64,000 nt of DNA from Thauera sp. 28. GTDB lineage: Bacteria; Pseudomonadota; Gammaproteobacteria; Burkholderiales; Rhodocyclaceae. Below are positions 4,118 to 20,955 of the stretch, piece by piece. Position numbers and translations under genes: made by a program. How positions within the stretch are numbered: position 1 is the first letter of the stretch; every line of letters begins with the position of its first letter. Location of the stretch: positions 1-64,000 of the forward strand of contig NZ_AMXA01000004.1 in assembly GCF_000310145.2 (NCBI RefSeq), read 5' to 3'. The notes beneath the pieces were generated by a model. That model saw only the letters and a program-made list of their open reading frames with translations. It was not told the DNA's origin and made no database searches.

Positions 4118-5839
4118 ATGCTTGCCCGCCTGATCCGCTCCGATCGGCCCGACGAACTGCAGCGCGGCCTGCGCTGGCTCTACGGTTTCGTGCGGCCGCA
4201 GCGACGCGCGATCGCGGGCCTGCTGTTGCTGTCGTTCGCAGCGACGCTGCTCGTGCTGCTGCAGCCCTGGCTGATCAAGCTGCTCATCGACGAAGGCCTG
4301 CTCGCGCGGGACTACGGCGTGCTGCTGGCCGTCGCCGGGACGATGGTCTTGGTCGGCATCGTCGGCACCGTCCTTGCCGGCATCAACCGGCTGCTCCACA
4401 CGCGGCTCTCCGGCACCATCCTGTTCGCCTTGCGCAGTGATCTCTACGGCCACCTGCAGCGCCTGTCGCCCGCATTCTATGGTCGTCAGCGCATGGGCGA
4501 CCTGATGTCGCGCATCGATGGCGACGTCGCCGAGATCCAGCGCTTTGCGGTCGATAGCCTGTTCGCGGCCGTCAGCAGTCTGATCGGCCTCGCCGGGGCG
4601 GTGTTGCTGATGCTCAGCCTGTCCTGGGAACTGTCCTTGCTTGTTCTGGTGCTGGTGCCGCTCGAGGTGGTATGGCTGCGCTGGATGCGGCGCAAGGTGG
4701 AGGTCGATACGCGGCGCGTACGCGAGCGCGCTGCCGATGTGTCGAGCTTCCTGGTCGAGACCCTGCCGGCGATGAAGTTCATCCAGGCCTCCAGCCGCGA
4801 GGCAGACGAACGCGCACGCCTGGACGCGCTGGGCGCGCACTACCTGGGCGGGCTGCTGCGTCTGCAGCGCACCGAATTCCTGACTCATGCCGTGCCGGCG
4901 ACCCTGACCTCGCTGACACGCGCTGCCGCATTCGTGATCGGCGGCTGGTGGGTGATCAACGACGCCTGGCAGCTCGGCGCGCTGATTGCGTTCTCGACCT
5001 ACCTCGGCATGGCGACCGGCCCGGTCAACAGCCTGCTCGGCCTGTACGTGGCAGTGCAGCGCATGAGCGTGAGCCTGATGCGGGTGAGCGAGTTGCGCGA
5101 GGCGCCGGTGGACGTCGAAATGCGCGTCGGGCTGCATGCGCCGGACGCCGCATGGCGGGGCGGGATCGAGCTCGACGGTGTGGTCTTTCGCCACCCTGGG
5201 CGTCAGGAAGCCGTGCTCGATGGCGCTTCGGTGAGCATTCCGGCCGGCAGCAAGGTGGCGCTGACCGGCGCCTCGGGCGTGGGCAAGTCCACGCTCATCG
5301 ATCTGTTGCATCGCCATTACGATCCTGCCGCCGGTGCAATCAGGATCGACGGCGTGGACCTGCGCGCGCTCGCCCTCAATGAGCTGCGTCGCGCGGTGGC
5401 GGTCGTCAGCCAGGACATCGTGCTGTTCCGCGGCTCGCTCGCGGCCAACATCCGCTATGCCGCGCCGCAGGCCGACGATGCCGCTGTACGTGAGGCGGCG
5501 CGGCGGGCGCAGCTCGATGTGCTGATCGCGCAGTTGCCGCAAGGGCTCGATACGCCCTTGGGCGAGCGCGGCCAGCAGTTGTCGGGCGGCCAGCGCCAGC
5601 GTATCGCGATCGCCCGTGCGCTGTTGCAGGACCCCTGCGTCCTGGTCCTCGACGAGGCGACCTCGGCGGTCGACGAAGCGACCGAGGCCGCGGTGATCGC
5701 CGAGGTCGATGCCCTGTTCGCTGGGCGTACGCGCATCCTGATCAGTCATCGTGCAGCCACGCTGTGCGGGTGCGATCTGCGCCTGCGCCTGGAGGGCGGC
5801 CGGATCGACGTCCTCGACCTGCCTGCGGAGCTCGCCTAG
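4118..5839 (+). CDS. qhpF: ABC exporter of the QHNDH gamma subunit
   Basis: This 573-residue half-transporter fuses an N-terminal membrane domain (hydrophobic segments within residues 25-300) to an ATPase domain. The ATPase has Walker [10 protein letters not shown], signature [15 protein letters not shown] and Walker [15 protein letters not shown]. Alone it could be any type I exporter. The identification as QhpF rests on the next two genes, a subtilisin-like protease and a flavoprotein monooxygenase, and on the QHNDH subunit genes 3 kb downstream. In the known system QhpF is needed to move the crosslinked QhpC protein to the periplasm. The stop is immediately followed by the GTG of qhpE with no gap. 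Confidence 0.88.
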
Positions 5840-6532
5840 GTGGCGGCCGCGGCGCTGCGGGTGGCGTTCGTCGATAGCGGCTGCGCCCCCAGACACCAGA
5901 ATTGCGTTGCGGCCGCGGCAGCCTTCGTGCTCGATGACCGCGGCGTGCGGCGCATCGAGGCGGCGCCCGACGCGCTCGGACATGGCAGCCGCGTCGCCGA
6001 TATCCTGCTGCATTGCGCACCCCGGATCGAACTCCTGGTCGCCCAGGTGTTCCGCGAGCGTCTCGGTACCACGCCGCTGCAGGTGGCTGCCGCGATCGAC
6101 TGGGCGGTCGAGTGCGGTGCCGGCCTGATCAACCTCAGCCTTGGCCTGCGTGAGCCGCGCCCCGTGCTCGCCGCCGCCTGCGCGCGCGCGCGCGCCGCGG
6201 GCGTGGTGCTGTGTGCGGCTGCACCGGCACGGGGCCCGGCGGTGTATCCCGCAGGCTTCGCGGGCGTGCTGCGGGTGACCGGCGATGCGCGCTGCGCGCC
6301 GTCCGAGATCGCGGCCCTGGGCGCGGAGCATGCCGATTTCGGCTCCCATGTGCGGCCGCTGGACGGCACACTGTCCGGCGCCGGCGCCAGCATGGCTTGT
6401 GCCTGGCTGAGTGGCCTCGCTGCCCGTCACCTGGCGGCGGCAGGCCGTGCCGACCAGCTGCATGCATGGTTGCGTGCGCAGGCTCGCCACCATGGTGCGG
6501 ACAATCCGGGGAGCAGGACGCATGAGCAATGA
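5840..6532 (+). CDS. qhpE: Subtilisin-like protease for QhpC leader removal
   Basis: The 230-residue product is a compact S8-type protease. Asp12 lies in FVDSG, His48 in GHGSRVAD and Ser184 in SGAGASMA, giving the catalytic triad in the usual order. There is no signal peptide, as expected for a cytoplasmic enzyme that cuts the leader from crosslinked QhpC. The usual oxyanion-hole Asn context (AAGN) reads CAAAPA here, so that residue seems missing or shifted. The gene uses GTG directly abutting the qhpF stop and overlaps qhpG by 11 nt. The domain is shorter than secreted subtilisins, as in other QhpE proteins. Confidence 0.85.
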   Translation: MAAAALRVAFVDSGCAPRHQNCVAAAAAFVLDDRGVRRIEAAPDALGHGSRVADILLHCAPRIELLVAQVFRERLGTTPLQVAAAIDWAVECGAGLINLSLGLREPRPVLAAACARARAAGVVLCAAAPARGPAVYPAGFAGVLRVTGDARCAPSEIAALGAEHADFGSHVRPLDGTLSGAGASMACAWLSGLAARHLAAAGRADQLHAWLRAQARHHGADNPGSRTHEQ

Positions 6533-7853
6533 GGGAATCGTGGTCATCGGCGCCGGGCCGGCGGGTGCGGCGACCGCGCTGGGGCTGGCCCGGCTCGGCG
6601 AGCCCGTCGTGCTGGTCGGTGAGCCGCGCCGGTTTGCCGCTGTCGAGGGGGTGTCGTCGCGGGTCATCGAGGCCCTCCGCAGTCTGGGTTTCGAGCGCGC
6701 GCTCGATGCCTTCGCGCCGCCCTCCCCGCGGCGAGCGAACTGGAACGGGGTGCATGCCGAGGCCAACTCCGAGAGCCTCGTCGATCGGCAGTGCTTCGAT
6801 CGCGCCATGCTCGTGGATCTGGAGCGCCTGGGGGTGCAGGTGGTGCGCGGGCGCGTTACCGCCGTGCACGCGGAGCAGGGGCGCTACCGGATCGGCGTGG
6901 ACGCCGCCGATCGCCGTCTTGCCCTGGCTGCGGACTTCGTGGTCGAGGCCCGTGGCCGTGCTGCCCCTGCAGGCGGGCGGCCGCGGCTGCGTGGGGTGGA
7001 GACGGTGTCGCTGCTGCAGTACTGGAGAGGCCCGGAAACCTCACCGGGTTCGACGGTGCAGAGCTGCGAGGATGGCTGGATGTGGATGGCTGCACTGGCA
7101 GATGGGCGGCGCTATCTGCAGCTGACCCTGGATGTCGCCACCGCAAGCCTGCCTGCCAAGAAGGCGCTCGGCGACTACTGTCGTGCCCGCTTCGAGGCTG
7201 TCGACGCGGCTGCAGCCTTCATGGCCGATGCGGCGCCGGTCGGCGAGCCCCATGCGCGTACCAGCACGGCCGTGCTCGGTGGCGAGGTCGCCGGCGACGA
7301 CTGGCTTCGCGTCGGCGATGCGGCGATGGCGGTCGATCCGCTATCGGGCAACGGCATCTTCCAGGCGCTGTCTTCCGCCTTGCAGGCGCCGGCGGTGGTG
7401 GCGACGCTGCGCCATGACCCCGAGCATGGCGGACTTGCCCGGCGCTTCCACCAGCAGCGCATCGAACACCTTTTTCACCGCTTCGCCCGCATTGGCCGGG
7501 ACTTCTACGCGCAGGAGTCGCGCTGGTCCGATGCGCCATTCTGGGCGGCGCGGCGCAGCTGGCCCGACGCCGCACCAGTGCACGCGGCGGTGACGCCGGA
7601 GACGGTGGGCATCGACAGCCGTCCGGTGGTCAAGGACGGCCGCATCGTCGAGCGGACGGTGGTGGTGACGCCCGAGCAGCCGCTCGGCGTGTGGCATCTG
7701 GATGGGGTGGAGCTTGCGCCGGCGCTGTGCGCGCTGCGTGCGGCGGGCGCAGGGGTGTCTCCTGAGGCGGTGCTGGAGGCCCGGCTGGGCCTTGCCGCGC
7801 CCCGGGCTTCGCAGATCGTGGGCTGGATGAAGGGTCAGGGGTGGATTTCCTGA
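6522..7853 (+). CDS. qhpG: FAD-dependent monooxygenase for CTQ biogenesis
   Basis: The 443-residue flavoprotein has the N-terminal dinucleotide-binding motif VIGAGPAGAATA (about residues 8-19) and the second FAD motif GDAAMAVDPLSGNG starting at Gly265. It resembles the tryptophan-halogenase/PHBH-like class. In QHNDH producers QhpG uses O2 to hydroxylate the QhpC tryptophan that becomes the cysteine tryptophylquinone cofactor. Start 6522 is the ATG inside the qhpE end, with a GAGCAGGA upstream sequence. The long in-frame extension upstream is a shadow of qhpE. The gene faces qhpR convergently, and an inverted repeat separates them. Confidence 0.9.
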   Translation: MSNEGIVVIGAGPAGAATALGLARLGEPVVLVGEPRRFAAVEGVSSRVIEALRSLGFERALDAFAPPSPRRANWNGVHAEANSESLVDRQCFDRAMLVDLERLGVQVVRGRVTAVHAEQGRYRIGVDAADRRLALAADFVVEARGRAAPAGGRPRLRGVETVSLLQYWRGPETSPGSTVQSCEDGWMWMAALADGRRYLQLTLDVATASLPAKKALGDYCRARFEAVDAAAAFMADAAPVGEPHARTSTAVLGGEVAGDDWLRVGDAAMAVDPLSGNGIFQALSSALQAPAVVATLRHDPEHGGLARRFHQQRIEHLFHRFARIGRDFYAQESRWSDAPFWAARRSWPDAAPVHAAVTPETVGIDSRPVVKDGRIVERTVVVTPEQPLGVWHLDGVELAPALCALRAAGAGVSPEAVLEARLGLAAPRASQIVGWMKGQGWIS

Positions 7854-7917: not shown

Positions 7918-8904
7918 TCAGATCCGGCGCTTGAGCGTTTCGGAGGGCAGTTCGTCGAACATGGCCTTGTACTCGGCGGCGAAGTGCGACAGGTGCCAGA
8001 ACCCCCAGCGTGCGGCAATGTCCGCGACCGTCTCGCGGCCGTTCGCGTCTGCGCTCTTGAGTGCCCGCCGCACGGCGTTGAGTCGGATCGCGCGCAGGAA
8101 CTTGACCGGGTTGAGGTTGAGCACGTCCTGGAAGCTGTACTGCAGCGTGCGGCGCGATACGCCGAGCTCGATGCACAGGTCGGCCACCGTGATCGGCTCG
8201 TCGATGTGGGCCTCCATGTAGGCGCGTGCTTGTGCGACCACGAGCTGGCGGGTGCGACATGATGCGGGGCTGGCCGATGCGGTGGTGGCGGACGCAAGGG
8301 TGTCGAGCAGCGTGGCGAACAGGGCCTGCTCCATCGCCTTGCGCATCTGCGCGTGGTGGAGGAGCGCAGGCGTGGCCCGCAGGCTTGCCATCATCGTCGC
8401 CAGCAGCTTGCCGAGGGCGGTAACCTGCTCGGGGCTGGCGGGCGCAATGCTGCGTGCCGCGAGTTCGGCCTCGATGTTGCGGTGATCGACCTGCTGCGCG
8501 TAGTCGCACAGTGCCCTGGCGTCCGCCGTACAGGCCAGGATCTCGAGCCGGCGGGGAGTGCGGAAGTCCAGTTCGTCGGCGCCGCCCAGCGTCAGCATCG
8601 AATGCGCGTCATAGACCTCGCCACCAAACCAGCCCGTGCCTTCGATCGCAACCGGTACCGCGAAGGTGCGCGATCCAGGCCAGGCGATCCCGGATTGGTG
8701 AACGGACTGGTTCAGCCCCTCGCGGAACAACTGAACGTTGCCGAAGCAGAATTCCTCGAACACGCCGGAAAAGCTGCCGGCGCTCAGTTGATCGTAGCGC
8801 TGTTGCCAGTTGCTCAGGCATGCGGCGTGATCGTCCGCGTCTTTCGTTTCGCGTGAGGAATGCGAGTAGGGGAGGCGGTCCGTCCTGGTGGCGGCCGGGC
8901 TCAT
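7918..8904 (-). CDS. qhpR: AraC-family regulator of the qhp genes
   Basis: The 328-residue protein has a long N-terminal sensing half and a C-terminal AraC/XylS DNA-binding region (about residues 220-325). The two helix-turn-helix units centre on ITVADLCIELGVSRRTLQYSF and VADIAARWGFWHLSHFAAEYK. AraC activators are the known regulators of QHNDH operons, responding to amines. It is transcribed away from qhpA across a shared 322-nt intergenic region and converges on qhpG. The first roughly 25 residues are poorly conserved in character, so a start slightly downstream is possible. Confidence 0.87.
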   Translation of the reverse strand: MSPAATRTDRLPYSHSSRETKDADDHAACLSNWQQRYDQLSAGSFSGVFEEFCFGNVQLFREGLNQSVHQSGIAWPGSRTFAVPVAIEGTGWFGGEVYDAHSMLTLGGADELDFRTPRRLEILACTADARALCDYAQQVDHRNIEAELAARSIAPASPEQVTALGKLLATMMASLRATPALLHHAQMRKAMEQALFATLLDTLASATTASASPASCRTRQLVVAQARAYMEAHIDEPITVADLCIELGVSRRTLQYSFQDVLNLNPVKFLRAIRLNAVRRALKSADANGRETVADIAARWGFWHLSHFAAEYKAMFDELPSETLKRRI

Positions 8905-9226: not shown

Positions 9227-10810
9227 TTGAAGATCAAAACGATTACGGCTGCGCTGGGCAGCCTGGCGGCCCTTGGTGCAGCGCTGGCGCCGGCGCCGGC
9301 CCTGGCATCGGCCGAGGCGCTGATACGTGCGAAGTGCCTGCCCTGTCACACCGAGGGCGATGAGGGAATCAGTCGCATCAGTCAGCAGCGCAAAAGTCCC
9401 GAAGGGTGGCTGATGTCGGTGGCACGCATGCAGATCGTCCATGGCCTGAAGGTCACGGACGACGAGCGGCGCACCGTGGTCAAGTACCTCGCCGACACGC
9501 AGGGTCTGGCGCCCTCCGAGACCGACGGCGTGCGTTACGCGCTCGAGCGACGCTTGAATGCGGTCGAGCAGTTCGAATCCGAGCAGTTCACCCAGATGTG
9601 CGCGCGCTGCCATTCCGGCGCCCGGGTGATGCTGCAGCGCCGGCCTGCGGAAGAGTGGGAGCATCTGGTGCATTTCCATCTCGGTCAGTACCCGACTACC
9701 GAGTACCAGGCGCTGGGGCGTGACCGCGACTGGTTCGGCATCGCGCTCAAGGAAATGGTCCCCGAGCTGGCGCGCACCCTGCCCTTGCAGACGGAGGCCT
9801 GGACGCAATGGCAGGCGCGTGCACCGCAGGTGGTGAAGGGCGAGTGGAGCATGAGCGGCCACATGAGCGGGCGCGGCGGCTTCTCGGGTGTCATGAAGGT
9901 CAGCGCCGCCAAGGGCAAGGACCTGTACGCGCTGAGCTTCGACGGGCGCTGGGATGACGGCAGTGAGATGAGCGGCAAGGGGCAGGCGCTGCTGTACACC
10001 GGTTATGAGTGGCGCGGCGATCTGGTCGTCGATGGCACGCCGATGCGCCAGGTGTTTGCGCTCGAGGACGGCGTGCTGCGCGGACGCATGTTCCTGCGGG
10101 ATCAGGACGAGATCGGCGCCGATGTCGTGGCCAGCCTGCAGCAACCCGGCAACAGCCGTGTGCTGGCGGTGCACCCGGCCCACCTCAAGGCCGGCATGGC
10201 GGCCGAGTTGCGCATCGTCGGTTCCGGCCTGCAGGGTGAGGTGAGCCTGCCCCCGGGGGTGCGCTTGCTGGAGACGATCCGGCGCTCCGATGCCGAAGTC
10301 GTGTTGCGCGTGGAGGCGGCGGATGACGCGCGTGGCGTGCACCAGGTCGCAGTGGGTGAGGCGCGTGGCGGCACGCTCGCTGTGTATGACAGCATCGCGG
10401 CGGTGAAGGTGATGCCGGCGTTCGCGGTGGCCCGCATCGGTGGCAATGGCACACCGACGGCGAAGGTGGAGGCCCGCTTCGACGCCGAGGCCTGGGCGGC
10501 CGGGCCGGATGGAAAGATCGGTACCGAGGACGACTTCCGCATCGGTTTCGTGCCGGCGAACTGGTCGGTCGAGCCCTTCGACGAGGTTGCCGTGCGCGAC
10601 GAGGACGTCAAGTTCGCCGGCCTGATGGACGCGGCGAGCGGCGTGTTCGTGCCGGGTGACGCCGGGCCCAATCCGGCGCGCCGGATGTCGGCCAGCAATG
10701 TGGGCAATCTCAAGGTCGTGGCCGAGGTGGCTCAGGGTGCCGAGCGCCTGCGCGGCGAGGGCCAGGTGATCGTGGCGCCGCCGCGCTGGAACAACCCGCC
10801 GATTCCGTGA
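9227..10810 (+). CDS. qhpA: Quinohemoprotein amine dehydrogenase alpha subunit (di-heme c)
   Basis: This large subunit oxidises primary amines in the periplasm together with QhpB and QhpC and passes electrons through two c-type hemes. The 527-residue precursor has a signal peptide ending near PALA-S (residue 27). Heme motifs are CLPCH (residues 37-41) and CARCH (125-129). A long beta-rich C-terminal part follows, as in the known alpha subunit. The start is TTG with an AGGAG site a few bases upstream. The gene opens the qhpADCB operon, divergent from qhpR. Covalent heme attachment requires a cytochrome c maturation system, and a CcmF-like gene lies further downstream. Confidence 0.93.
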   Translation: MKIKTITAALGSLAALGAALAPAPALASAEALIRAKCLPCHTEGDEGISRISQQRKSPEGWLMSVARMQIVHGLKVTDDERRTVVKYLADTQGLAPSETDGVRYALERRLNAVEQFESEQFTQMCARCHSGARVMLQRRPAEEWEHLVHFHLGQYPTTEYQALGRDRDWFGIALKEMVPELARTLPLQTEAWTQWQARAPQVVKGEWSMSGHMSGRGGFSGVMKVSAAKGKDLYALSFDGRWDDGSEMSGKGQALLYTGYEWRGDLVVDGTPMRQVFALEDGVLRGRMFLRDQDEIGADVVASLQQPGNSRVLAVHPAHLKAGMAAELRIVGSGLQGEVSLPPGVRLLETIRRSDAEVVLRVEAADDARGVHQVAVGEARGGTLAVYDSIAAVKVMPAFAVARIGGNGTPTAKVEARFDAEAWAAGPDGKIGTEDDFRIGFVPANWSVEPFDEVAVRDEDVKFAGLMDAASGVFVPGDAGPNPARRMSASNVGNLKVVAEVAQGAERLRGEGQVIVAPPRWNNPPIP

Positions 10811-10880: not shown

Positions 10881-12311
10881 ATGAGTGCGGTCCTGAATCT
10901 CGTGCATGACAACCTGCACGAAGTGCGCGTCGATGGTACGCGCATGCTGTTCCATATCCCGAGCAGTTCGCTGTTCGCGCTCGACACGCTGACCGCGGCC
11001 TTGCTCGACCGTATCCGCCGCCAGAGCCTGAGTGCCGAGGCCCTGATCGACGGCCTGCGTACGGAGTTCGAGGCCCATGAGGTGGCCGAGGCGATCCGCG
11101 AGCTGGTCGCGCTCGAGCTCATCGACGACGGCCGCCCGGCCGGCGCCACCGCGCTCGCGCACACCTTCGAGCGTTTCCCGCTCACCACGGTGGTGCTCAA
11201 CGTCAACACCGGCTGCAACCTGAGCTGCACCTACTGCTACAAGGAAGATCTCGACAAGCCCTCGGCGGGTCGCAAGATGGCCTTCGAGACCGCACGCGAC
11301 GCGATCGAGATGATGCTGCGCGAGTCGCCCGACGAACCCCGCTACACCGTCGTCTTCTTCGGCGGCGAGCCACTCAGCAACCTGCCGCTTATCAAGGACG
11401 TGGTGGCGTACTGCGAGACGCGCTTCCCCGAGCTCGGCAAGCAGGTCGATTTCGTCATGACGACGAACGCCACGCTGCTTGCAGACGACACCATCGACTG
11501 GCTCAACGCCCACCGCTTCGGCCTGTCGATCAGCATCGACGGTCCCAAGGCGATCCATGACCGCAACCGGCTCACGGTCGGCGGTCAGGGCACCTACGAG
11601 ACCGTGCGCCGCAAGGCCGAGCGCCTGCTGTCGCGCTATCGCGCGCGGCCGGTCGGCGCGCGTGTCACGCTGACCCATGGCACCACCGAAGTCGAGCGCA
11701 TCTGGGATCACCTGTTCAACGAGCTCGGCTTTGCCGAAGTCGGCTTCGCGCCGGTGACCTCGGGCGACATCAGCACCTTCAACCTCACGGGCGAGGAGCT
11801 GGTCGAGGTCTTCGCCGGGCTCAAGCGGCTTGGCCAGCGCTACCTGGAGGCAGCGCTGGAAGGTCGCAACATCGGCTTCTCCAACATGCACCAGCTGATC
11901 ACCGACCTGCACGAAGGCCACAAGAAGGCGCTGCCCTGCGGCGCCGGGCTGAAGATGCTGGCGGTCGATCACAAGGGCGAACTGAACCTGTGCCACCGCT
12001 TCACCGGCTCCACGCTGCCGACTTTCGGCGATGTGAAGAACGGCATCAAGCGCGAGCAGCTCGGCGACTTCCTGTCCCAGCGCCTGGATCGCACCGATAC
12101 CGGCTGCGCCAGCTGCCGCATCCGCAACCTGTGCTCGGGCGGCTGCTACCACGAGAGCTACGCGCGCTACGGCGATCCGGCACACCCCACCTACCACTAC
12201 TGCGATCTGATGCGCGACTGGGTGGACTTCGGCATCGAGGTCTACAGCCGCATCATGGCCGGCAACCCGGCCTTCATCGAACAGCATATTTCCCCGAGGA
12301 GGGCGTCATGA
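10881..12311 (+). CDS. qhpD: Radical SAM/SPASM enzyme crosslinking QhpC
   Basis: The 476-residue enzyme forms the intrapeptidyl thioether bonds in QhpC before export. The radical SAM motif [10 protein letters not shown] places Cys112, Cys116 and Cys119 on the 4Fe-4S cluster. The SPASM-type C-terminal cysteines appear in [26 protein letters not shown] and YHYCDL, enough for auxiliary clusters. An N-terminal PqqD-like peptide-binding region occupies roughly the first 100 residues. A GAGGAG ribosome site lies before the ATG. Its stop overlaps the start of qhpC as ATGA, so enzyme and substrate are translationally coupled. Confidence 0.95.
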
Positions 12312-12634
12312 AACATCTCAAGGCGATCAATAACAAGGCGCGGCTGCTGGACAAGGCGGTTGCGGAGGACCGGATCGAGGAGGTGGTGGCGATGAGCGCC
12401 CTCGCCGGCTGCACGGCGACGGTGGACCCGGGCTGGGAAGTGGACGCCTTCGGCGGCGTGGCCTCGCTGTGCCAGCCGATGGAGTCCGACCTCTACGGCT
12501 GTGCTGATCCGTGCTGGTGGCCGGCCCAGGTGCCCGATGTGATGAACACCTACCCGGATTGGAACAAGGACGCGGCCAACACCCGCGAGGACTGGCGCAA
12601 TCTCGGCTCGGTCTTCCCGGGCGACAAGCTGTAA
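12308..12634 (+). CDS. qhpC: QHNDH gamma subunit precursor (CTQ protein)
   Basis: The 108-residue precursor carries a charged 28-residue leader and then the catalytic peptide starting near MSALAGC. With a 28-residue offset, every crosslink position known from the family is present. The Cys-Glu/Asp thioether pairs are C35-E44, C55-D61 and C69-D77. C65 and W71 form cysteine tryptophylquinone. The motif [15 protein letters not shown] carries most of these. QhpD makes the bonds, QhpG hydroxylates the Trp, QhpE cuts the leader and QhpF exports the product. The leader is not a Sec signal. The next gene begins 10 nt downstream. Confidence 0.96.
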
Positions 12635-12644
12635 GGGGGCGGAC

Positions 12645-13781
12645 ATGAAGACAACGATGACCGGCGGCGCGCTGCGCCGCACCGCGGCCGCGCTCGCCTG
12701 CCTGGCCGCCAGCACCCTGCCTGCGGCTGCAGGCAACGAGGCGCTGGCGCTCAAGCCCGGCAACGAGTACCTGATGGTGGCGAACTATCCGAACAACCTG
12801 AACGTGGTCGACCTGGCCAGCGACAGTGTCTACAAGACCTGCAAGCTGCCCGACGCCTTCGGGCCGGGGATCACGCAGATCGCACCTGACCGCCGCACGG
12901 CCTATGTCCTCAACAACCGCTTCGGCACGATCTACGGCGTAGACCTCGATACCTGCAAGGTGACTTTCCGCGCCGAGATGTCGCAGGGCGAGAACGAACG
13001 CGCCAAGTCGATCGGGTCGTTCACCATCAGCCCCGACGGCAAGGAGCTGTACGCGGTGCAGAACCCCACCCGGATCAACCGCGACCACTATCGCGTCGGC
13101 GAGCCGCGCTTCGTCGCCTATGACACCCAGGCCGGTCTTGAGGCCAAGCCGGTACGTACGTTTCCGGCGCCGCGCCAGCTCAACATCATGCTTGCAGGTG
13201 ACGACGGTGCCGTCTATGTGGCGGGTCCCAACCTCTACAAGGTGGATGTGAAGACGGGCGAGATGACGGTCGCGCTGCCGATCCGCGACTGGCAGCGGCC
13301 CACCCATGCCCCGCTCGACGTGCTCTACCTGTGGCCGGTACAGACGCCTACGCGCGACTTCACCATCCTCTACACCACGGCGAAGTTCCAGGACGACAAG
13401 CAGGACATGGAGACGGCCGAGTACCAGTACGGCTTCCTCAACGTCGACCTCAAGAGCGGCGAGACCGAGGCGCGCGAATTCGGCCCGCTGACCGAGATCT
13501 ATTTCACCGGGATCCGCTCGCCGAAGGATCGCAACATCATCTACGGCCTGCTCCATCGCCTCACCAAGTACGACATCGCGCAGCAGAAGCTGGTGGAGGC
13601 GGCCGAGCTCGATCACACCTACTACACGTTGCTGACCAACCAGGCGGGGAGCCGGCTGTATCTCACCGGAACCTTCAACGACATCTCCATCCACGACGCC
13701 GACACGCTGGCGAAGGTCGGCCAGGTGAAGCTGCCAGGCGGCGACATGTCGCTCGGCACCGGGCAGGTCTTCGTGCGCTGA
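12645..13781 (+). CDS. qhpB: Quinohemoprotein amine dehydrogenase beta subunit
   Basis: The 378-residue precursor has a Sec signal peptide ending near TLPAAAG (about residue 29) and a repeating beta-blade pattern typical of the seven-bladed propeller beta subunit. Segments such as GNEYLMVANYPNNLNVVDL and QIAPDRRTAYVLNNRFG are blade-like. It holds the gamma subunit between itself and QhpA in the periplasm. It lies 10 nt after qhpC and has its own GGGGG-type ribosome site. It lacks heme motifs, as expected. Family alternatives are other YncE-like propellers, but the operon position decides the call. Confidence 0.93.
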   Translation: MKTTMTGGALRRTAAALACLAASTLPAAAGNEALALKPGNEYLMVANYPNNLNVVDLASDSVYKTCKLPDAFGPGITQIAPDRRTAYVLNNRFGTIYGVDLDTCKVTFRAEMSQGENERAKSIGSFTISPDGKELYAVQNPTRINRDHYRVGEPRFVAYDTQAGLEAKPVRTFPAPRQLNIMLAGDDGAVYVAGPNLYKVDVKTGEMTVALPIRDWQRPTHAPLDVLYLWPVQTPTRDFTILYTTAKFQDDKQDMETAEYQYGFLNVDLKSGETEAREFGPLTEIYFTGIRSPKDRNIIYGLLHRLTKYDIAQQKLVEAAELDHTYYTLLTNQAGSRLYLTGTFNDISIHDADTLAKVGQVKLPGGDMSLGTGQVFVR

Positions 13782-15281: not shown

Positions 15282-16784
15282 ATGGATCGATACAAGGGTG
15301 AGTTGCTGAGTGCCAACACGCGCCGCTTCCTGGCCCAGCCCAAGCGCATGCTGATTGGCAGTGAGTGGCTGGAGGCCGTCGGCGGTGGTGTGCTGGAGGT
15401 GGTCGACCCGGCCAGCGCACAGGTGTTTGCCAGCGTGCCGGCCGGCGAGGCGGCCGATATCGACCGCGCAGTGGCAGCGGCGCGCAAGGCCTTCGAGCAG
15501 GGGGAGTGGCCGCGCATGCGTCCGGTGGACCGCGAGCGCCTGCTGCTGCGCCTGGCCGACCTGGTCGAGGCGAACGCGCAGGAGCTGGCCGAGATCGAGG
15601 CCCTCGACAACGGCAAGCCGGTGACCATGGCGCGCGCGGTCGACGTGGCGCTGGTGGTGGATTTCCTGCGCTACATGGCGGGCTGGGCGACCAAGCTGGA
15701 AGGCTCGACGATGGAAGTCTCGGTGCCGCTGGTGCGCAACCGCGAGTTCTTCGGCTTTACCCGGCGCGAGCCGGTGGGGGTGGTGGGTGCGATCATCCCG
15801 TGGAACTTCCCGCTTCTGATGGTGGCCTGGAAAGCGGGGCCGGCGCTGGCCTCGGGCTGCACCATGGTGCTCAAGCCGGCCGAAGAGACTCCGTTGTCGG
15901 CGCTGCGCTTTGCAGAGCTGGTGCTGGAGGCGGGCTACCCGGCCGGCGTGTTCAACGTGGTCACCGGTCATGGTCATACCGCGGGCGCAGCGCTGGCCTC
16001 GCACACCGGCATCGAGAAGGTTGCCTTCACCGGCTCGACCGAGATCGGCAAGCTGGTGGGCAAGGCGGCGCTCGACAACATGACGCGGGTGTCGCTGGAA
16101 CTCGGAGGCAAGAGCCCGGTGATCGTGCTCGACGACGCCGATCCGGCGGTGGCGGCGGCGGGTGCGGCGCAGGCGATCTTCTTCAACCAGGGGCAGGTGT
16201 GCTGCGCGGGTTCGCGCCTGTATGTGCATAAGAGCCGCTTCGAGCGCGTGGTCGAGGGCCTGTCCGAGATCGCCGCCGGCATGAAGCTCGGTGCCGGCAT
16301 CGATCCCACGACCCAGATCGGTCCGCTGGTGTCGGCCACCCAGCAGCAGCGTGTGCTCGGCTACATCCGCAGCGGTTTCGAGCAGGGCGCGCGCGCCCTG
16401 GCGGGCGGTGCGGCAGGCGAGGGCGAGGGCTACTTCGTCAAGCCCACCGTGCTGGTGGACACCCGCGACGACATGAAGGTGGTGCGCGAGGAGATCTTCG
16501 GTCCGGTGGTGGTGGCAATGCCGTATGACGACCTCGACGAGGTCGCCCGCCGCGCCAACGACACCCCGTTCGGCCTGGGCGCCAGCATCTGGTCGAACGA
16601 CCTGTCGCGGGTGCATCGGCTGGTGCCGAAGATCAAGGCCGGAACGGTGTGGGTCAACTGCCACAACATCCTCGACGCCTCGATGCCCTTCGGCGGCTAC
16701 AAGCAATCGGGCATCGGTCGCGAGATGGGGCGCGCGGTGCTCGATCTCTACACCGAGAGCAAGTCGGTGATCATGGCCCTGTAA
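15282..16784 (+). CDS. NAD(P)-dependent aldehyde dehydrogenase
   Basis: This 500-residue ALDH superfamily enzyme oxidises an aldehyde to the acid. It shows the catalytic Glu motif LELGGKSP and the nucleophile in FFNQGQVCCAGS (Cys307 by alignment to ALDH2 Cys302). It also has the nucleotide-binding VAFTGSTEIGK and the proton-relay Asn in IIPWNFP. Placed after qhpADCB and the barrel, it most likely removes the aldehyde produced by amine oxidation. Substrate range cannot be read from sequence. Length and motifs are complete and the start has a GGAGA site. Confidence 0.93.
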   Translation: MDRYKGELLSANTRRFLAQPKRMLIGSEWLEAVGGGVLEVVDPASAQVFASVPAGEAADIDRAVAAARKAFEQGEWPRMRPVDRERLLLRLADLVEANAQELAEIEALDNGKPVTMARAVDVALVVDFLRYMAGWATKLEGSTMEVSVPLVRNREFFGFTRREPVGVVGAIIPWNFPLLMVAWKAGPALASGCTMVLKPAEETPLSALRFAELVLEAGYPAGVFNVVTGHGHTAGAALASHTGIEKVAFTGSTEIGKLVGKAALDNMTRVSLELGGKSPVIVLDDADPAVAAAGAAQAIFFNQGQVCCAGSRLYVHKSRFERVVEGLSEIAAGMKLGAGIDPTTQIGPLVSATQQQRVLGYIRSGFEQGARALAGGAAGEGEGYFVKPTVLVDTRDDMKVVREEIFGPVVVAMPYDDLDEVARRANDTPFGLGASIWSNDLSRVHRLVPKIKAGTVWVNCHNILDASMPFGGYKQSGIGREMGRAVLDLYTESKSVIMAL

Positions 16785-16878: not shown

Positions 16879-17745
16879 ATGAATGCCCCTGAACTGGCGG
16901 TGGCGGCCTGCCATGCGCTCGATCTGGCGTGGACAGCGGCTGCAACTGCGGAACGCGCAGAACACTGGCAGCGTCTCCATGGCGATGCGGAGCTTGCGAC
17001 CTGGCTGGCGCCGCTGCAGCCCACCCATCTGTATTTCGGCAGCGAGTTCTGCGAGCACCTGCTGCCTTCCGCACGGGCGTTGCGCGAGGCCCTGAGCCAG
17101 GCTAAGAGCGCCGGGCTGCGTCTGGTCCTGCTCACTCCAGTGGCCTCGCCCGAGGTTCTGGCGCAGCTCGATGTGCTGCTGCCGACGCTGCCCGCCGGCA
17201 GCGAGGTGGTGGTCAATGACTGGGGTGTCGCACACGAGCTTGCGAGCCGGTTCGGGGACTTGCGTCCGGTGGCCGGGCGCGTGCTGTGCCGCATGACCAA
17301 GGATCCCCGTATCGACGCGGGCTGGGCGGGGCGCTGCGGCCATGGCCTCGCCGCACCGACGATGCACGCCCTTTTCTCGCGCCTGGGCATTCGGCGCCTG
17401 GAGATCGACGTGCCCTTGTTCGCCGATGAGGAAGTATTCGCCGACCTGCCGCTGCCTGCCGCGGTACATCTGCCCTACGTCTATGTGGCCAAGGGCCGGA
17501 TGTGCCGGGCGGGTTCGCTGTCGGTGACAGGAACGGAGCGCTTCGCCGTCGGGCGGCGCTGCCAGAAGGAATGCCTGCGCTTTTCGGCGCTGGCGTCGCG
17601 GCCCGGGCGGGCGGATGTGGCTGCCAGCGTGCAGCTTGGCAACACCTTTTTCAGCCGCCATTCGGCGGCGATGGCGAGCAGTCTGCGGCAGGCGGTCGAC
17701 AGCAAGCGTGTCGCCCGCCTGGTCGTTCCGGGAGCGCCGCTATGA
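16879..17745 (+). CDS. U32-family Fe-S protein, UbiV-like
   Basis: The 288-residue protein belongs to the peptidase U32/UbiV group. Its cysteines Cys58, Cys209, Cys228 and Cys232 give C-X150-C-X18-C-X3-C. That mirrors the 4Fe-4S ligands of E. coli UbiV (C-X140-C-X12-C-X3-C). UbiU-UbiV performs oxygen-independent hydroxylation of ubiquinone precursors. Here no ubiT is adjacent, and the pair sits between the amine-oxidation genes and a CcmF-like gene, so it may act on the QHNDH cofactor instead (inference). The ATG has a strong GGAGGA site. Its stop overlaps the partner gene as ATGA. The alternative is a true ubiquinone-pathway UbiV. Confidence 0.8.
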   Translation: MNAPELAVAACHALDLAWTAAATAERAEHWQRLHGDAELATWLAPLQPTHLYFGSEFCEHLLPSARALREALSQAKSAGLRLVLLTPVASPEVLAQLDVLLPTLPAGSEVVVNDWGVAHELASRFGDLRPVAGRVLCRMTKDPRIDAGWAGRCGHGLAAPTMHALFSRLGIRRLEIDVPLFADEEVFADLPLPAAVHLPYVYVAKGRMCRAGSLSVTGTERFAVGRRCQKECLRFSALASRPGRADVAASVQLGNTFFSRHSAAMASSLRQAVDSKRVARLVVPGAPL

Positions 17746-18755
17746 GGATCGTTGCCCCGGTGTCGCGCGTTGCCGAGATCGAGCCGCTGGCGCAGGCGGG
17801 CGCCAGCGAGTTCTACTGCGGCCTGGTGCCGCCCGATTGGCTCGGCCGTTTTCACGCCATCAATGCCAATCGTCGCCCGTCGGGCAACCTGACGCGCTAC
17901 GAGGACCTGGCGCGTGCGATCGACATTGCCCACGCCCATGAGGCCACCGTGTCGCTCGTGCTCAACGCCCAGCACTATTCCGCCGCCCAGATCGGTGCCG
18001 CGGAGGATATCGCCGGGCGCTTCGCGGCGCTGGGCGGCGATGCGCTGATCGTCAGCGATCTCGGCCTGCTCCATGCGCTGGCGCTGCGCTTTCCGGCGCT
18101 GCGCATGCACGTCAGCTCGGTGGCGACCTGTCGCAACGCCGGTGCGGCGCGGCTGTGCCGCGAGCTCGGCGCGCAGCGCCTGATCCTGCCGCGTGACGTC
18201 ACCCTGGCCGAGGCCGCCAGCATTGCCGCCGAGGTCCCCGACATCGAGATCGAAGCCTTCGTACTCAACGACGGCTGCATCTTCGAGGAAGGCGCTTGCC
18301 ACACCATTCACCTGCCGGGCCAGCTCGGCGGCCCGATCTGTCTCGACCGCTTCGAATACCGCTACCGCCGCCGCGATGGCGGGGCGGTGTCGCCGCGGCT
18401 GGCGGCGCGCCTGCAGCAGAATGACGCAGAGTACGAGCGCTGGCTGTGGTACCGCTTCTCCTGCGGTTTCAGCACCACGCCCGAAGGCCTGCCCTACGGG
18501 CCGTGCGGCCTGTGTGCGGTGCCGGTGCTGCGGCGCGGGCGGGTGGCGGCGATCAAGATTGCCGGGCGTGAAGCGCCCACCGCGCGCAAGCTGGCGAGCG
18601 TGCGCATGGTCCGGTCGGTGCTCGAGCGCGTGCGTGCGGGCGAGGACGATGCGGCGGTGCGCGCGTTCGCGGTCGGGCTGCGGCCTTCCGAGTCGCACTG
18701 CGCAACGGGCTACATGTGCTATTACCCCGAAGTGCTGCGCGTGGAGGGGCGCTGA
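17742..18755 (+). CDS. U32-family Fe-S protein, UbiU-like
   Basis: The 337-residue partner has the U32 N-terminal ASEFYCGL and the cysteine set Cys179, Cys186, Cys200, Cys241 (C-X6-C-X13-C-X40-C). This closely follows the UbiU iron-sulfur ligand pattern C-X6-C-X16-C-X38-C. U32 proteins known to hydroxylate without O2 include UbiU/UbiV and TrhP. It overlaps the UbiV-like gene by 4 nt, suggesting a heterodimer made in equal amounts. Extra cysteines (GPCGLC, SHCATGYMC) follow toward the C-terminus. Substrate is unknown; the genome context points to QHNDH maturation. Confidence 0.8.
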   Translation: MRIVAPVSRVAEIEPLAQAGASEFYCGLVPPDWLGRFHAINANRRPSGNLTRYEDLARAIDIAHAHEATVSLVLNAQHYSAAQIGAAEDIAGRFAALGGDALIVSDLGLLHALALRFPALRMHVSSVATCRNAGAARLCRELGAQRLILPRDVTLAEAASIAAEVPDIEIEAFVLNDGCIFEEGACHTIHLPGQLGGPICLDRFEYRYRRRDGGAVSPRLAARLQQNDAEYERWLWYRFSCGFSTTPEGLPYGPCGLCAVPVLRRGRVAAIKIAGREAPTARKLASVRMVRSVLERVRAGEDDAAVRAFAVGLRPSESHCATGYMCYYPEVLRVEGR

Positions 18756-18756
18756 G

Positions 18757-20955
18757 ATGGACGCCATCTCCCGCCGCACGCCGAGCGGGGCGGTCATGGC
18801 TCTGGCCGCGCTCGCGCTCGCGATCTGGCCCGAACTCGGCCAGCCGGTTCTCGCAGTAGTGGTGGCGCTCGCCGTACATGCCGCGCTGAGGCCGCGTGGG
18901 CGGGCTCTTGCGTTGACGCTGTCGGCGGCGCTGGCGTGGGCGTGTGTGTTGGCCCTCGGCTGGCATTTTGCCAGCGACCGTTTCGAGGTGCGCTATGTCT
19001 GGCTGTACAGCAGCGCGGAACTGCCGCTCCACCTCAAGCTCGCCAACCTGTGGGGCGGTGATGAGGGCACGACGCTGCTGCTCGCAGCCCTGTGCATCAG
19101 TCTCGCGGCAGGCGGTGCGCTGCGTGCGCGGGTCGGGCCCAACCTGTCGCCGACCGCGGCGATCGCGGCGTGGCTTGTGTTGACCGCGCTGTGGCTCGCG
19201 CCCTTTGCGGAGACACCCCCGGAATGGTTGGTGCAATCGGCATCGCAGGGCATGAATGCGCATCTGATGAAGCCGTGGATGCTGTTCCATGCGCCCCTGG
19301 TGCTGGCGGCCTACGCCTGGACGCTCGCACTCGCGGAGCCGGCGCTCGAGGCGCTGTGCGGTCGCCCGGCGCCATGGCCGATGCTGGCCAGAACGCGGGC
19401 GCGGCGGGCGTGGGTGGTGCTTACCGCCGGCATTGGCTTCGGCATGCTGTGGGCGTTCGAAGATGCGATGTATGGCCAGGTCTGGCACTGGGATCCGGTG
19501 CAGACTGCGGTGTTCTGCACCTGGTGCCTGCTGGGCGCTCACCTCCACGGATTCGGGGGCTGGGCAGTCGGACGGCGGCGCTGGCAGGTCATGCCGTGGG
19601 CGGCGGTGCTTGCTGCAGTCACGATACCGCTTGCGATGGCCGTGACGCGCAACCCGCTGCTTGCGAGTTCGCACCGTTACGTGGGTGCAGACTCGTGGGT
19701 CAGCCATGTCGTTCTCGCTTCGATCCTGCTGCTGGCGGCGGTCGGCGCGGGGATTGCGGGCAGGCGGGTCCGCGCCGACCGCCTGCCGGCTACCGACCGT
19801 GGCACGCAGCGGCTGGGGATGTGGCTTGTGCAGATCTGCTTTCTGGGCGCGGCCGCGATTGCCGCTGCGCAACTCTTGCTCGCCTTCGGCGCTACCGCGC
19901 TTGATCTGCCACGAGCGGAACATCACAAGCCCTTCCTCGCGATGCTTGCCAACCTGACTACCGGTGCCGAGCTCGCGGCCCTGCGCGCGGCCTTCGAGCA
20001 ATGGGATGTCGACGGTCACGCCGTTGGGCGCATGCTGTCGCTCCCGCTCGTGGCCGTGGGGCTGATCGGCGGCTGGTACTTCTGCCGCCGGGCATCTGCG
20101 CGGGGGGCTGCGGTGTCCTTGCCGCTTGCGGTCGCAGTGGTGGCAGGAAATGCAGTGTCTGGCGGTCTGCTGACGGGGGGCTACCAGGGCACGGGTGTCC
20201 TGTCGCAACAGATCGTCGCCGTCCTGCCCTTCCTGGATGCCGGATTGGCCAGTGGCGCCTACTTCGCGCTCGGGTGTGGCGCCTGGCTGCTGGCGAGTCT
20301 GCGCCGGCAGGGGGCAAGGGGGGTGTCGGCAGCATTGCCCGTGGTCGCGATCCATGCCGGGCTGGTTCTTGCACTGTGGGGCGGGCTGCTGGCAACCGCG
20401 CTCAACAGCTACACGCAGCATGAGATCGTCTTCGCTGGCGAGCCGACGGAGTGGGTTCGGGATCGCCATGGCTTTGCCTTGCGCCTGACTGGCCTTGACA
20501 TGGCACCGCTGCGCGATGGCGGGGTCGGAACGACTGGCGGTGTGCATGCGCTTACCCGCATTGAGCTGCGCGAGCCGGGAGGTGCGCTGGTGGATGGGCA
20601 GACGCTGTATCGGGACAGTCGTGCGCCGCCCGAGCGCTACGATGGCCCCCTGCGCCAGGTCTGTGAATTGCTCGACTACCGCTATGCGCGCCATACGGCA
20701 ACGCCGGGTTACCTGTTGCAGCCCCTGGTCGACCAGGGCTTGTGGCGCACGACCCAGTTCTGGATTGCCCCGGGTGCGGTGGTCGAGTCGCTGGCTGCGG
20801 GCGGCAGCGGCGGGGAGGTCATCGTCGTGGTGAAGACCTTCCCCTTCCTGTCGCTGCTGTGGGGAGGGCTGTTGATCATGCTGGCGGGCAGCGCCTGGCT
20901 CGCTTTCCGCACCCCTGGCAGGGATGGTCCGACGCCACAGGCGCGGCCGAGGTGA
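18757..20955 (+). CDS. CcmF/CcsA-like cytochrome c heme-assembly protein
   Basis: The 732-residue integral membrane protein has many hydrophobic segments. It carries the CcmF-type periplasmic segment WGGDEGTT (from residue 99) and a WWD-like heme-handling motif VWHWDPVQTAVF (Trp243-Asp246). The conserved His in KPWMLFHAPLVLAAY and a large periplasmic region near the C-terminus also fit CcmF. It would help attach heme to c-type cytochromes. No other ccm gene is adjacent. Its position one base after the U32 pair suggests a service role for di-heme QhpA. The long upstream in-frame reading is a shadow of the U32 gene; ATG 18757 is chosen. Confidence 0.8.
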   Translation: MDAISRRTPSGAVMALAALALAIWPELGQPVLAVVVALAVHAALRPRGRALALTLSAALAWACVLALGWHFASDRFEVRYVWLYSSAELPLHLKLANLWGGDEGTTLLLAALCISLAAGGALRARVGPNLSPTAAIAAWLVLTALWLAPFAETPPEWLVQSASQGMNAHLMKPWMLFHAPLVLAAYAWTLALAEPALEALCGRPAPWPMLARTRARRAWVVLTAGIGFGMLWAFEDAMYGQVWHWDPVQTAVFCTWCLLGAHLHGFGGWAVGRRRWQVMPWAAVLAAVTIPLAMAVTRNPLLASSHRYVGADSWVSHVVLASILLLAAVGAGIAGRRVRADRLPATDRGTQRLGMWLVQICFLGAAAIAAAQLLLAFGATALDLPRAEHHKPFLAMLANLTTGAELAALRAAFEQWDVDGHAVGRMLSLPLVAVGLIGGWYFCRRASARGAAVSLPLAVAVVAGNAVSGGLLTGGYQGTGVLSQQIVAVLPFLDAGLASGAYFALGCGAWLLASLRRQGARGVSAALPVVAIHAGLVLALWGGLLATALNSYTQHEIVFAGEPTEWVRDRHGFALRLTGLDMAPLRDGGVGTTGGVHALTRIELREPGGALVDGQTLYRDSRAPPERYDGPLRQVCELLDYRYARHTATPGYLLQPLVDQGLWRTTQFWIAPGAVVESLAAGGSGGEVIVVVKTFPFLSLLWGGLLIMLAGSAWLAFRTPGRDGPTPQARPR

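Follow-up and report, generated by a model that had tools for sequence, protein, structure and literature searches.

The known hydroxylase of the CTQ tryptophan in QHNDH, QhpG, needs dioxygen, yet a presumed denitrifier is reported, in the title of a paper, to use QHNDH anaerobically. The window analysed here, a stretch of 64,000 nucleotides from Thauera, holds two genes in its qhp (QHNDH) cluster, called uV and uU, whose products would resolve this contradiction if they hydroxylate the tryptophan without O2. The question raised by the locus is what this pair does. We consider it quite likely that uV and uU encode a U32 heterodimer dedicated to qhp, which dihydroxylates the CTQ tryptophan without O2; the activity, the Fe-S clusters and the independence of O2 are what we infer.

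The pair is enclosed in a cluster whose flanking genes were matched by curated models. On the forward strand the cluster starts with qhpF (4118..5839; ABC exporter, PF00664/PF00005), qhpE (5840..6532; subtilisin-like leader protease, PF00082) and qhpG (6522..7853; O2-dependent peptidyl tryptophan dihydroxylase, homologous to 7CTQ with an E-value of 3.4e-131). These are followed on the opposite strand by an AraC-type regulator (7918..8904), identified by AraC-type matches and presumably qhpR, a name given by position. The forward strand then continues with qhpA (9227..10810; dihaem alpha subunit, TIGR03908, 720.7 bits), qhpD (10881..12311; radical SAM thioether maturase, TIGR03906, 744.3 bits), qhpC (12308..12634; gamma subunit precursor and proposed substrate, PF08992, 147.9 bits) and qhpB (12645..13781; beta subunit, TIGR03907, 495.2 bits). 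The genes 3' of qhpB are a porin-like gene, an aldehyde dehydrogenase (15282..16784, forward strand, by model match) that likely catalyzes the next step of amine oxidation, uV, uU, a CcmF/NrfE-like haem lyase gene (18757..20955, forward strand, PF01578) and a Na:alanine symporter. The product of the CcmF-like gene is possibly a helper, a dedicated haem lyase for the c haems of QhpA. This gene recurs in qhp clusters, and it lies between qhpE and qhpG in six QhpG-bearing clusters of the family (L059-L062, L065, L066). When the ten ORFs 3' of the pair were compared in five loci, no common partner was found. The earlier note had placed the pair inside a QHNDH cluster without an adjacent ubiT. Both statements hold, with the QhpA, QhpB, QhpD and QhpC models matching the neighbors and with the aldehyde dehydrogenase and the CcmF-like gene flanking the pair. 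The note named QhpG as the O2-using enzyme but did not mention that it is encoded in the same cluster; since the qhpG product matches 7CTQ, the window genome carries the U32 pair alongside the O2-dependent enzyme.

The two genes lie on the forward strand and overlap by 4 nt, as had been noted earlier: uV (16879..17745, 288 aa) and uU (17742..18755, 337 aa) share the letters ATGA. The further claim that both are U32 genes stands for uU, which matches PF01136 with 125.7 bits against a cut-off of 22.4. For uV, neither Pfam nor NCBIfam gives a family at an E-value of 0.001, and all that appears up to an E-value of 1 is weak and unrelated. What connects uV to UbiV is a borderline profile similarity, at 48.6% (P 1.8e-4) with 47 sequences and 4.4% (P 0.0093) with 20. 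For reference, the accepted partners UbiV and UbiU reach 29.8% (5.6e-4) in the same test, while uV scores 1.2% with UbiU and 0.1% with QhpG, the control. The fold search with the uV model gave weak matches that are not diagnostic, the best being chitinases at an E-value of 1.9e-4. The cysteine spacing reported for uV is exact (C58-X150-C209-X18-C228-X3-C232), and all four residues are invariant in 47 of 47 sequences. Compared with the UbiV motif CXnCX12CX3C, the order of the cysteines is the same and the middle spacing is 18 rather than 12. The profile alignment of the 47 homologues with UbiV places C58 of uV opposite C39 of UbiV. In 59 of 61 loci uV is located immediately 5' of uU, and the remaining two loci are cut at the contig end.

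The profile of uU matches that of UbiU at 99.6% (E 8.6e-25), but uU scores only 86.8 bits with the UbiU equivalog model NF047963, far under the cut-off of 440. The predicted model of uU has a mean pLDDT of 86.5, with residues 183-197 under 50, and its top match among solved folds is the U32 structure 5d88 (E 2.5e-8). Seven cysteines are invariant in the 47 uU sequences: C179, C186, C200, C255, C258, C320 and C326. An excerpt of PMC6747719 describes UbiUV as a heterodimer with one [4Fe-4S] cluster per protein that hydroxylates without O2, and gives C169, C176, C193 and C232 as the ligands in UbiU. The first three of these are matched in order by C179, C186 and C200, while C232 has no strictly conserved counterpart. 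The window does contain the spacing C-X6-C-X13-C-X40-C that was earlier read as the Fe-S motif, but the last of the four cysteines, C241, is replaced by Asn in 8 of the 47 sequences and was rejected as the fourth ligand. The four invariant cysteines beyond the three that match UbiU, C255/C258 (CX2C) and C320/C326 (CX5C), form a possible second metal site. uU may hold more than one metal site, one at C179/C186/C200 with a further position that is open or taken by Asn, and another at C255/C258/C320/C326, an arrangement that would let the oxygen donor bind iron directly. Another mark of uU is a motif that reads KIAGRE in 41 sequences and KIAGRD in 6. The corresponding KIEGR is present in 8 of 9 UbiU sequences and also in E. 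coli TrhP and RlhA.

The earlier note had named two outcomes that would count against its reading: a pair that clusters within true UbiU/UbiV and is the only copy in the genome, or homologues that show no association with qhpC. Both were checked and neither outcome was obtained. A tree shows the separation from UbiU for uU. Among 77 U32 proteins, the 46 qhp-type uU form one clade (100/100) and the 20 UbiU form another (99/95), with TrhP and RlhA separate from the uU clade. A long branch leads to the uU clade, so its exact sister is unsure. This evidence of a separate clade comes from uU, and uV enters by the profile comparison. Elsewhere in the genome of the window there is a second pair, a canonical UbiU/UbiV (57% and 39% to E. 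coli). Judged by PF01136 scores, a UbiU is likely present in 27 of the family's 29 genomes with QhpD; BLAST confirmed canonical UbiU in all 19 loci that were fetched, and 15 of these loci belong to genomes with the uV/uU pair. The reading of the pair as an ordinary UbiUV was rejected on the separation of the two clades. Two other loci, L268 and L269 (genomes G192 and G167), contain arrays of four more U32 genes outside qhp, which the tree places away from UbiU, TrhP and RlhA.

The association of the pair with qhp was evaluated in three sets of genomes, in each of which the number of first-look candidates scored in any one genome was limited and some homologues may have been missed. In the family (199 genomes), QhpD is above the cut-off in 29 genomes and uU occurs in 21, all of them inside those 29 (Fisher 3.5e-22). 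In an alphaproteobacterial order (317 genomes), QhpD is found in 18 at an E-value of 1e-100 (17 above the cut-off) and uU in 10, with QhpD in 9 of these 10 (Fisher 6e-12); the sampling of this order was centered on a genome selected because it has the pair, and the contig scan had already revealed 8 of the 9 genomes with both the pair and QhpD. One genome of 2.5 Mb, G721, has a uV/uU pair (L327:8712-10561) and no QhpD in its assembly. The phylum sample of 398 genomes has QhpD in 7, the window genome among them. The scan of genome contigs yielded 61 uU loci across beta-, alpha- and gammaproteobacteria, including Thauera, Aromatoleum, Azoarcus, Magnetospirillum, Terasakiella, Sedimenticola, Motiliproteus and two Pseudomonas, organisms whose habit we take to be anaerobic. 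These loci bear uU by selection and are as such not part of the 53-genome table below. When at least 18 kb of a locus was available, qhpD or qhpC lies within it in 30 of 35 cases, and the other 5 genomes carry QhpD elsewhere. QhpD was found in 41 of the 44 genomes that were reached through uU and searched whole. That whole-genome search took in 44 of the 61 loci. The 17 left over comprise 15 whose contigs are equal in length to contigs of genomes already searched, and 2 in the assemblies of L109 and L111. A tblastn search of uU in a plasmid collection gave no match at an E-value of 1e-20.

The pair is also distributed in a manner complementary to QhpG. In 53 genomes with QhpD, 23 have QhpG only, 23 have the pair only, 7 have both and none has neither (Fisher 3.4e-9), where 3 of the 23 QhpG-only genomes are counted through a very divergent flavoprotein and G169, which has a partial uU without uV (L095), is counted among those with both. 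In a strict variant, with the three divergent flavoproteins taken as absent and G169 left out, the counts become 20, 23, 6 and 3 (p 3.5e-6), and the alphaproteobacterial order alone gives p 0.009. The partial uU of G169 (L095:4222-5052) is in a QhpG-bearing genome of the same genus as the window, and represents either a possible decay of the pair or a fault of the assembly.

The same trend is seen in the separate sets. Within the family, 15 of the 29 genomes with QhpD also have QhpG; the other 14, with nothing above 95 bits, all have uU. Six further QhpD genomes from the phylum sample all have QhpG and no U32 score in the range of the qhp-type uU, an absence that is read from PF01136 scores. 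In the alphaproteobacterial order, half of the 18 QhpD genomes have uU, and in these 9 no QhpG score exceeds 23 bits. QhpG is found in 6 of the other 9 (one cut by the contig end). In the remaining 3, a gene between qhpB and qhpF encodes a protein of some 335 aa with a weak match to the QhpG profile (E-values of 8e-6 to 2e-10, obtained in a small set of ORFs). These three proteins are encoded in divergent qhp clusters (L325:12392-13408, L326:5757-6758 and L329:2221-3240) and have no Pfam match. One of them was compared with solved structures, and the best match was 7ctq (2.3e-5) with halogenases nearly equal. The three proteins resemble flavoproteins, and their naming as QhpG is our interpretation. 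Another 41 genomes with the pair and QhpD were examined; 15 also have QhpG at an E-value of 1e-40 and 26 do not, in assemblies of which many are incomplete. Two stretches of 8.6 kb each, L270 and L271, contain complete QhpG genes and no other detected qhp gene, while the qhp cluster of the same genomes has the U32 pair.

To what extent is this distribution due to kinship? In a QhpD tree of 78 rows, from which G169 was left out, at least 10 changes of state are needed for the pair and at least 15 for QhpG. Matched rows that differ in both always differ in opposite directions (median p 0.25 from 7 such comparisons; in the reverse setting, 0.5 from 12). The trend corrected for kinship is not significant, as the informative comparisons are too few and the test is underpowered.

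More can be learned from what is kept in the clusters without qhpG. In fourteen clusters of the family the fetched stretch includes the pair but lacks qhpG, and 12 of these clusters retain all of qhpA-F, so that qhpG is the sole absentee among qhpA-G. In L070 and L084, qhpE and qhpF are also absent from the stretch. Three of the 14 (L063, L071 and L072) belong to genomes with QhpG elsewhere. Four more family clusters lack qhpG and have the pair outside the fetched stretch; qhpE and qhpF are present in L080 and L083 and absent in L079 and L082. QhpC keeps its four cysteines and its pair of tryptophans in 71 of 71 sequences, 33 of which come from clusters with the uV/uU pair and without QhpG nearby. 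The two tryptophans are the invariant Trp70 and Trp71, and the published Trp43, when a 28-residue leader is added, would be Trp71 of the QhpC in the window. Since qhpA-F are mostly retained and the QhpC residues are kept, there is no change in the substrate, and hydroxylation is generally the single step left without its known enzyme.

The earlier note had read the pair as an O2-independent CTQ hydroxylase. The uU clade, the association with qhp and the complementarity with QhpG support this reading, with the biochemical step as the predicted part. We propose that uV and uU would assemble into a UbiU/UbiV-type heterodimer that serves QHNDH specifically. It would act in the cytoplasm on the QhpC precursor, which is probably held and cross-linked by QhpD, in the way that QhpD holds it for QhpG. 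Two hydroxyls would then be placed on the tryptophan that is the precursor of CTQ, without O2. According to an excerpt of PMC7876137, QhpG consumes dioxygen and puts in both hydroxyls; the pair would do the same without it, and genomes would carry QhpG, the pair or, as in the window, both. The oxygen donor would most likely be prephenate, with the Fe-S clusters as the electron path; a review states that prephenate supplies the hydroxyl in anaerobic ubiquinone (PMC11574389). In its full form, with peptidyl tryptophan of QhpC dihydroxylated without O2, oxygen taken from prephenate and perhaps more than one metal site in uU, we hold this prediction with moderate confidence, somewhat above an even chance.

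The nearest known system is UbiU-UbiV (E. coli yhbU/yhbV), which also consists of two adjacent genes for a U32 protein and a V-like partner with apparently similar cysteine motifs, and which runs parallel to O2-dependent flavin monooxygenases. In contrast, uU belongs to a separate clade, with about 25-32% identity to UbiU over the aligned part, has KIAGR in 47 of 47 sequences where UbiU has KIEGR in 8 of 9, and has seven invariant cysteines compared with four. The gene order in the window is V-U, ubiT is not beside the pair, the pair is linked to qhp and its presumed substrate is a protein. The U32 RNA hydroxylases TrhP and RlhA share the U32 domain and hydroxylate without O2, as proposed for the pair, but they are single proteins with RNA substrates in separate clades. 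The O2-dependent tRNA counterpart is TrhO. QhpG (7CTQ) is encoded in the same cluster and its presumed substrate and reaction are the same as those of the pair, but it is an unrelated FAD monooxygenase that uses O2. LodB/GoxB and MauG also participate in the making of tryptophylquinones, but they belong to other protein families, and their target tryptophan is described as already mono-hydroxylated in an excerpt of PMC7876137.

Given the weak match of uU to the UbiU model and its strong profile similarity to UbiU, the pair might be a diverged second UbiUV for ubiquinone synthesis, with its place in qhp incidental. This reading is hardly credible, since uU forms its own clade, canonical UbiU occurs in the same genomes, ubiT is not adjacent and the qhp association extends over beta-, alpha- and gammaproteobacteria. 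The old name of the U32 family, and the description of 5d88 as a peptidase, would fit a pair that processes QhpC or another qhp protein. Such a protease role was rejected and is given a very small chance, because QhpE and QhpF are retained in 12 of the 14 clusters concerned and the cysteine motif is invariant in 47 of 47 sequences, as in the Fe-S hydroxylases of the U32 family.

The association with qhp is also consistent with a pair that matures QHNDH under anoxia in a different way, whether by the final oxidation of dihydroxy-tryptophan, by handling Fe-S clusters or haem, or by one hydroxylation only. An excerpt of PMC7876137 calls the physiological electron donor of the QhpG step unknown, which leaves room for such a role. 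It would leave unexplained, however, why QhpG is frequently absent beside the pair with the other genes mostly kept (12 of 14), and that the U32 relatives that have been studied are hydroxylases; we judge it rather unlikely. Another view is that the clusters without QhpG use an unlinked O2-dependent flavoprotein and that the pair has a lesser role. Two genomes, G167 and G044, do carry QhpG away from qhp. The profile search covered whole genomes, though. No score above 95 bits was obtained for QhpG in 14 of the 29 genomes from the family, and in the 9 genomes of the alphaproteobacterial order with both the pair and QhpD none exceeded 23 bits, so this view is quite improbable. Dihydroxylation by the pair remains our preferred reading.

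A link to anaerobic life comes from genome G100, which is Aromatoleum aromaticum EbN1 (stretches of both plasmids are 100% identical), an organism that we take to be a denitrifier. It has two qhp clusters, with the pair at each and QhpG at one. The title of a paper cited in PMC11231019 and PMC10413684, as seen in excerpts of both, states that two QHNDHs initiate anaerobic amine degradation in EbN1. Should EbN1 produce QHNDH under strict anoxia, it would require a hydroxylase that works without O2, and for this role the pair is the best candidate. ubiUV is described as being under FNR control in an excerpt of PMC10470549. For uV, a search of 54 loci over the 350 bases 5' of the gene found no FNR-like box, the best matches being 8 of 10 bases in 2 loci and at most 7 in the others. 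As uV is inside an operon in many loci, the operon promoters are outside this search.

In the open-licence literature we found no paper linking an amine dehydrogenase to a U32 hydroxylase, or tryptophylquinone to UbiU, and a protein residue is a substrate class that is not described for U32 enzymes in the literature examined. If the proposed reaction is true, the O2-free hydroxylation by U32 enzymes would be widened from quinones and RNA to proteins. It would also repeat a pattern in which an O2-dependent flavoenzyme is backed by an O2-free U32 enzyme.
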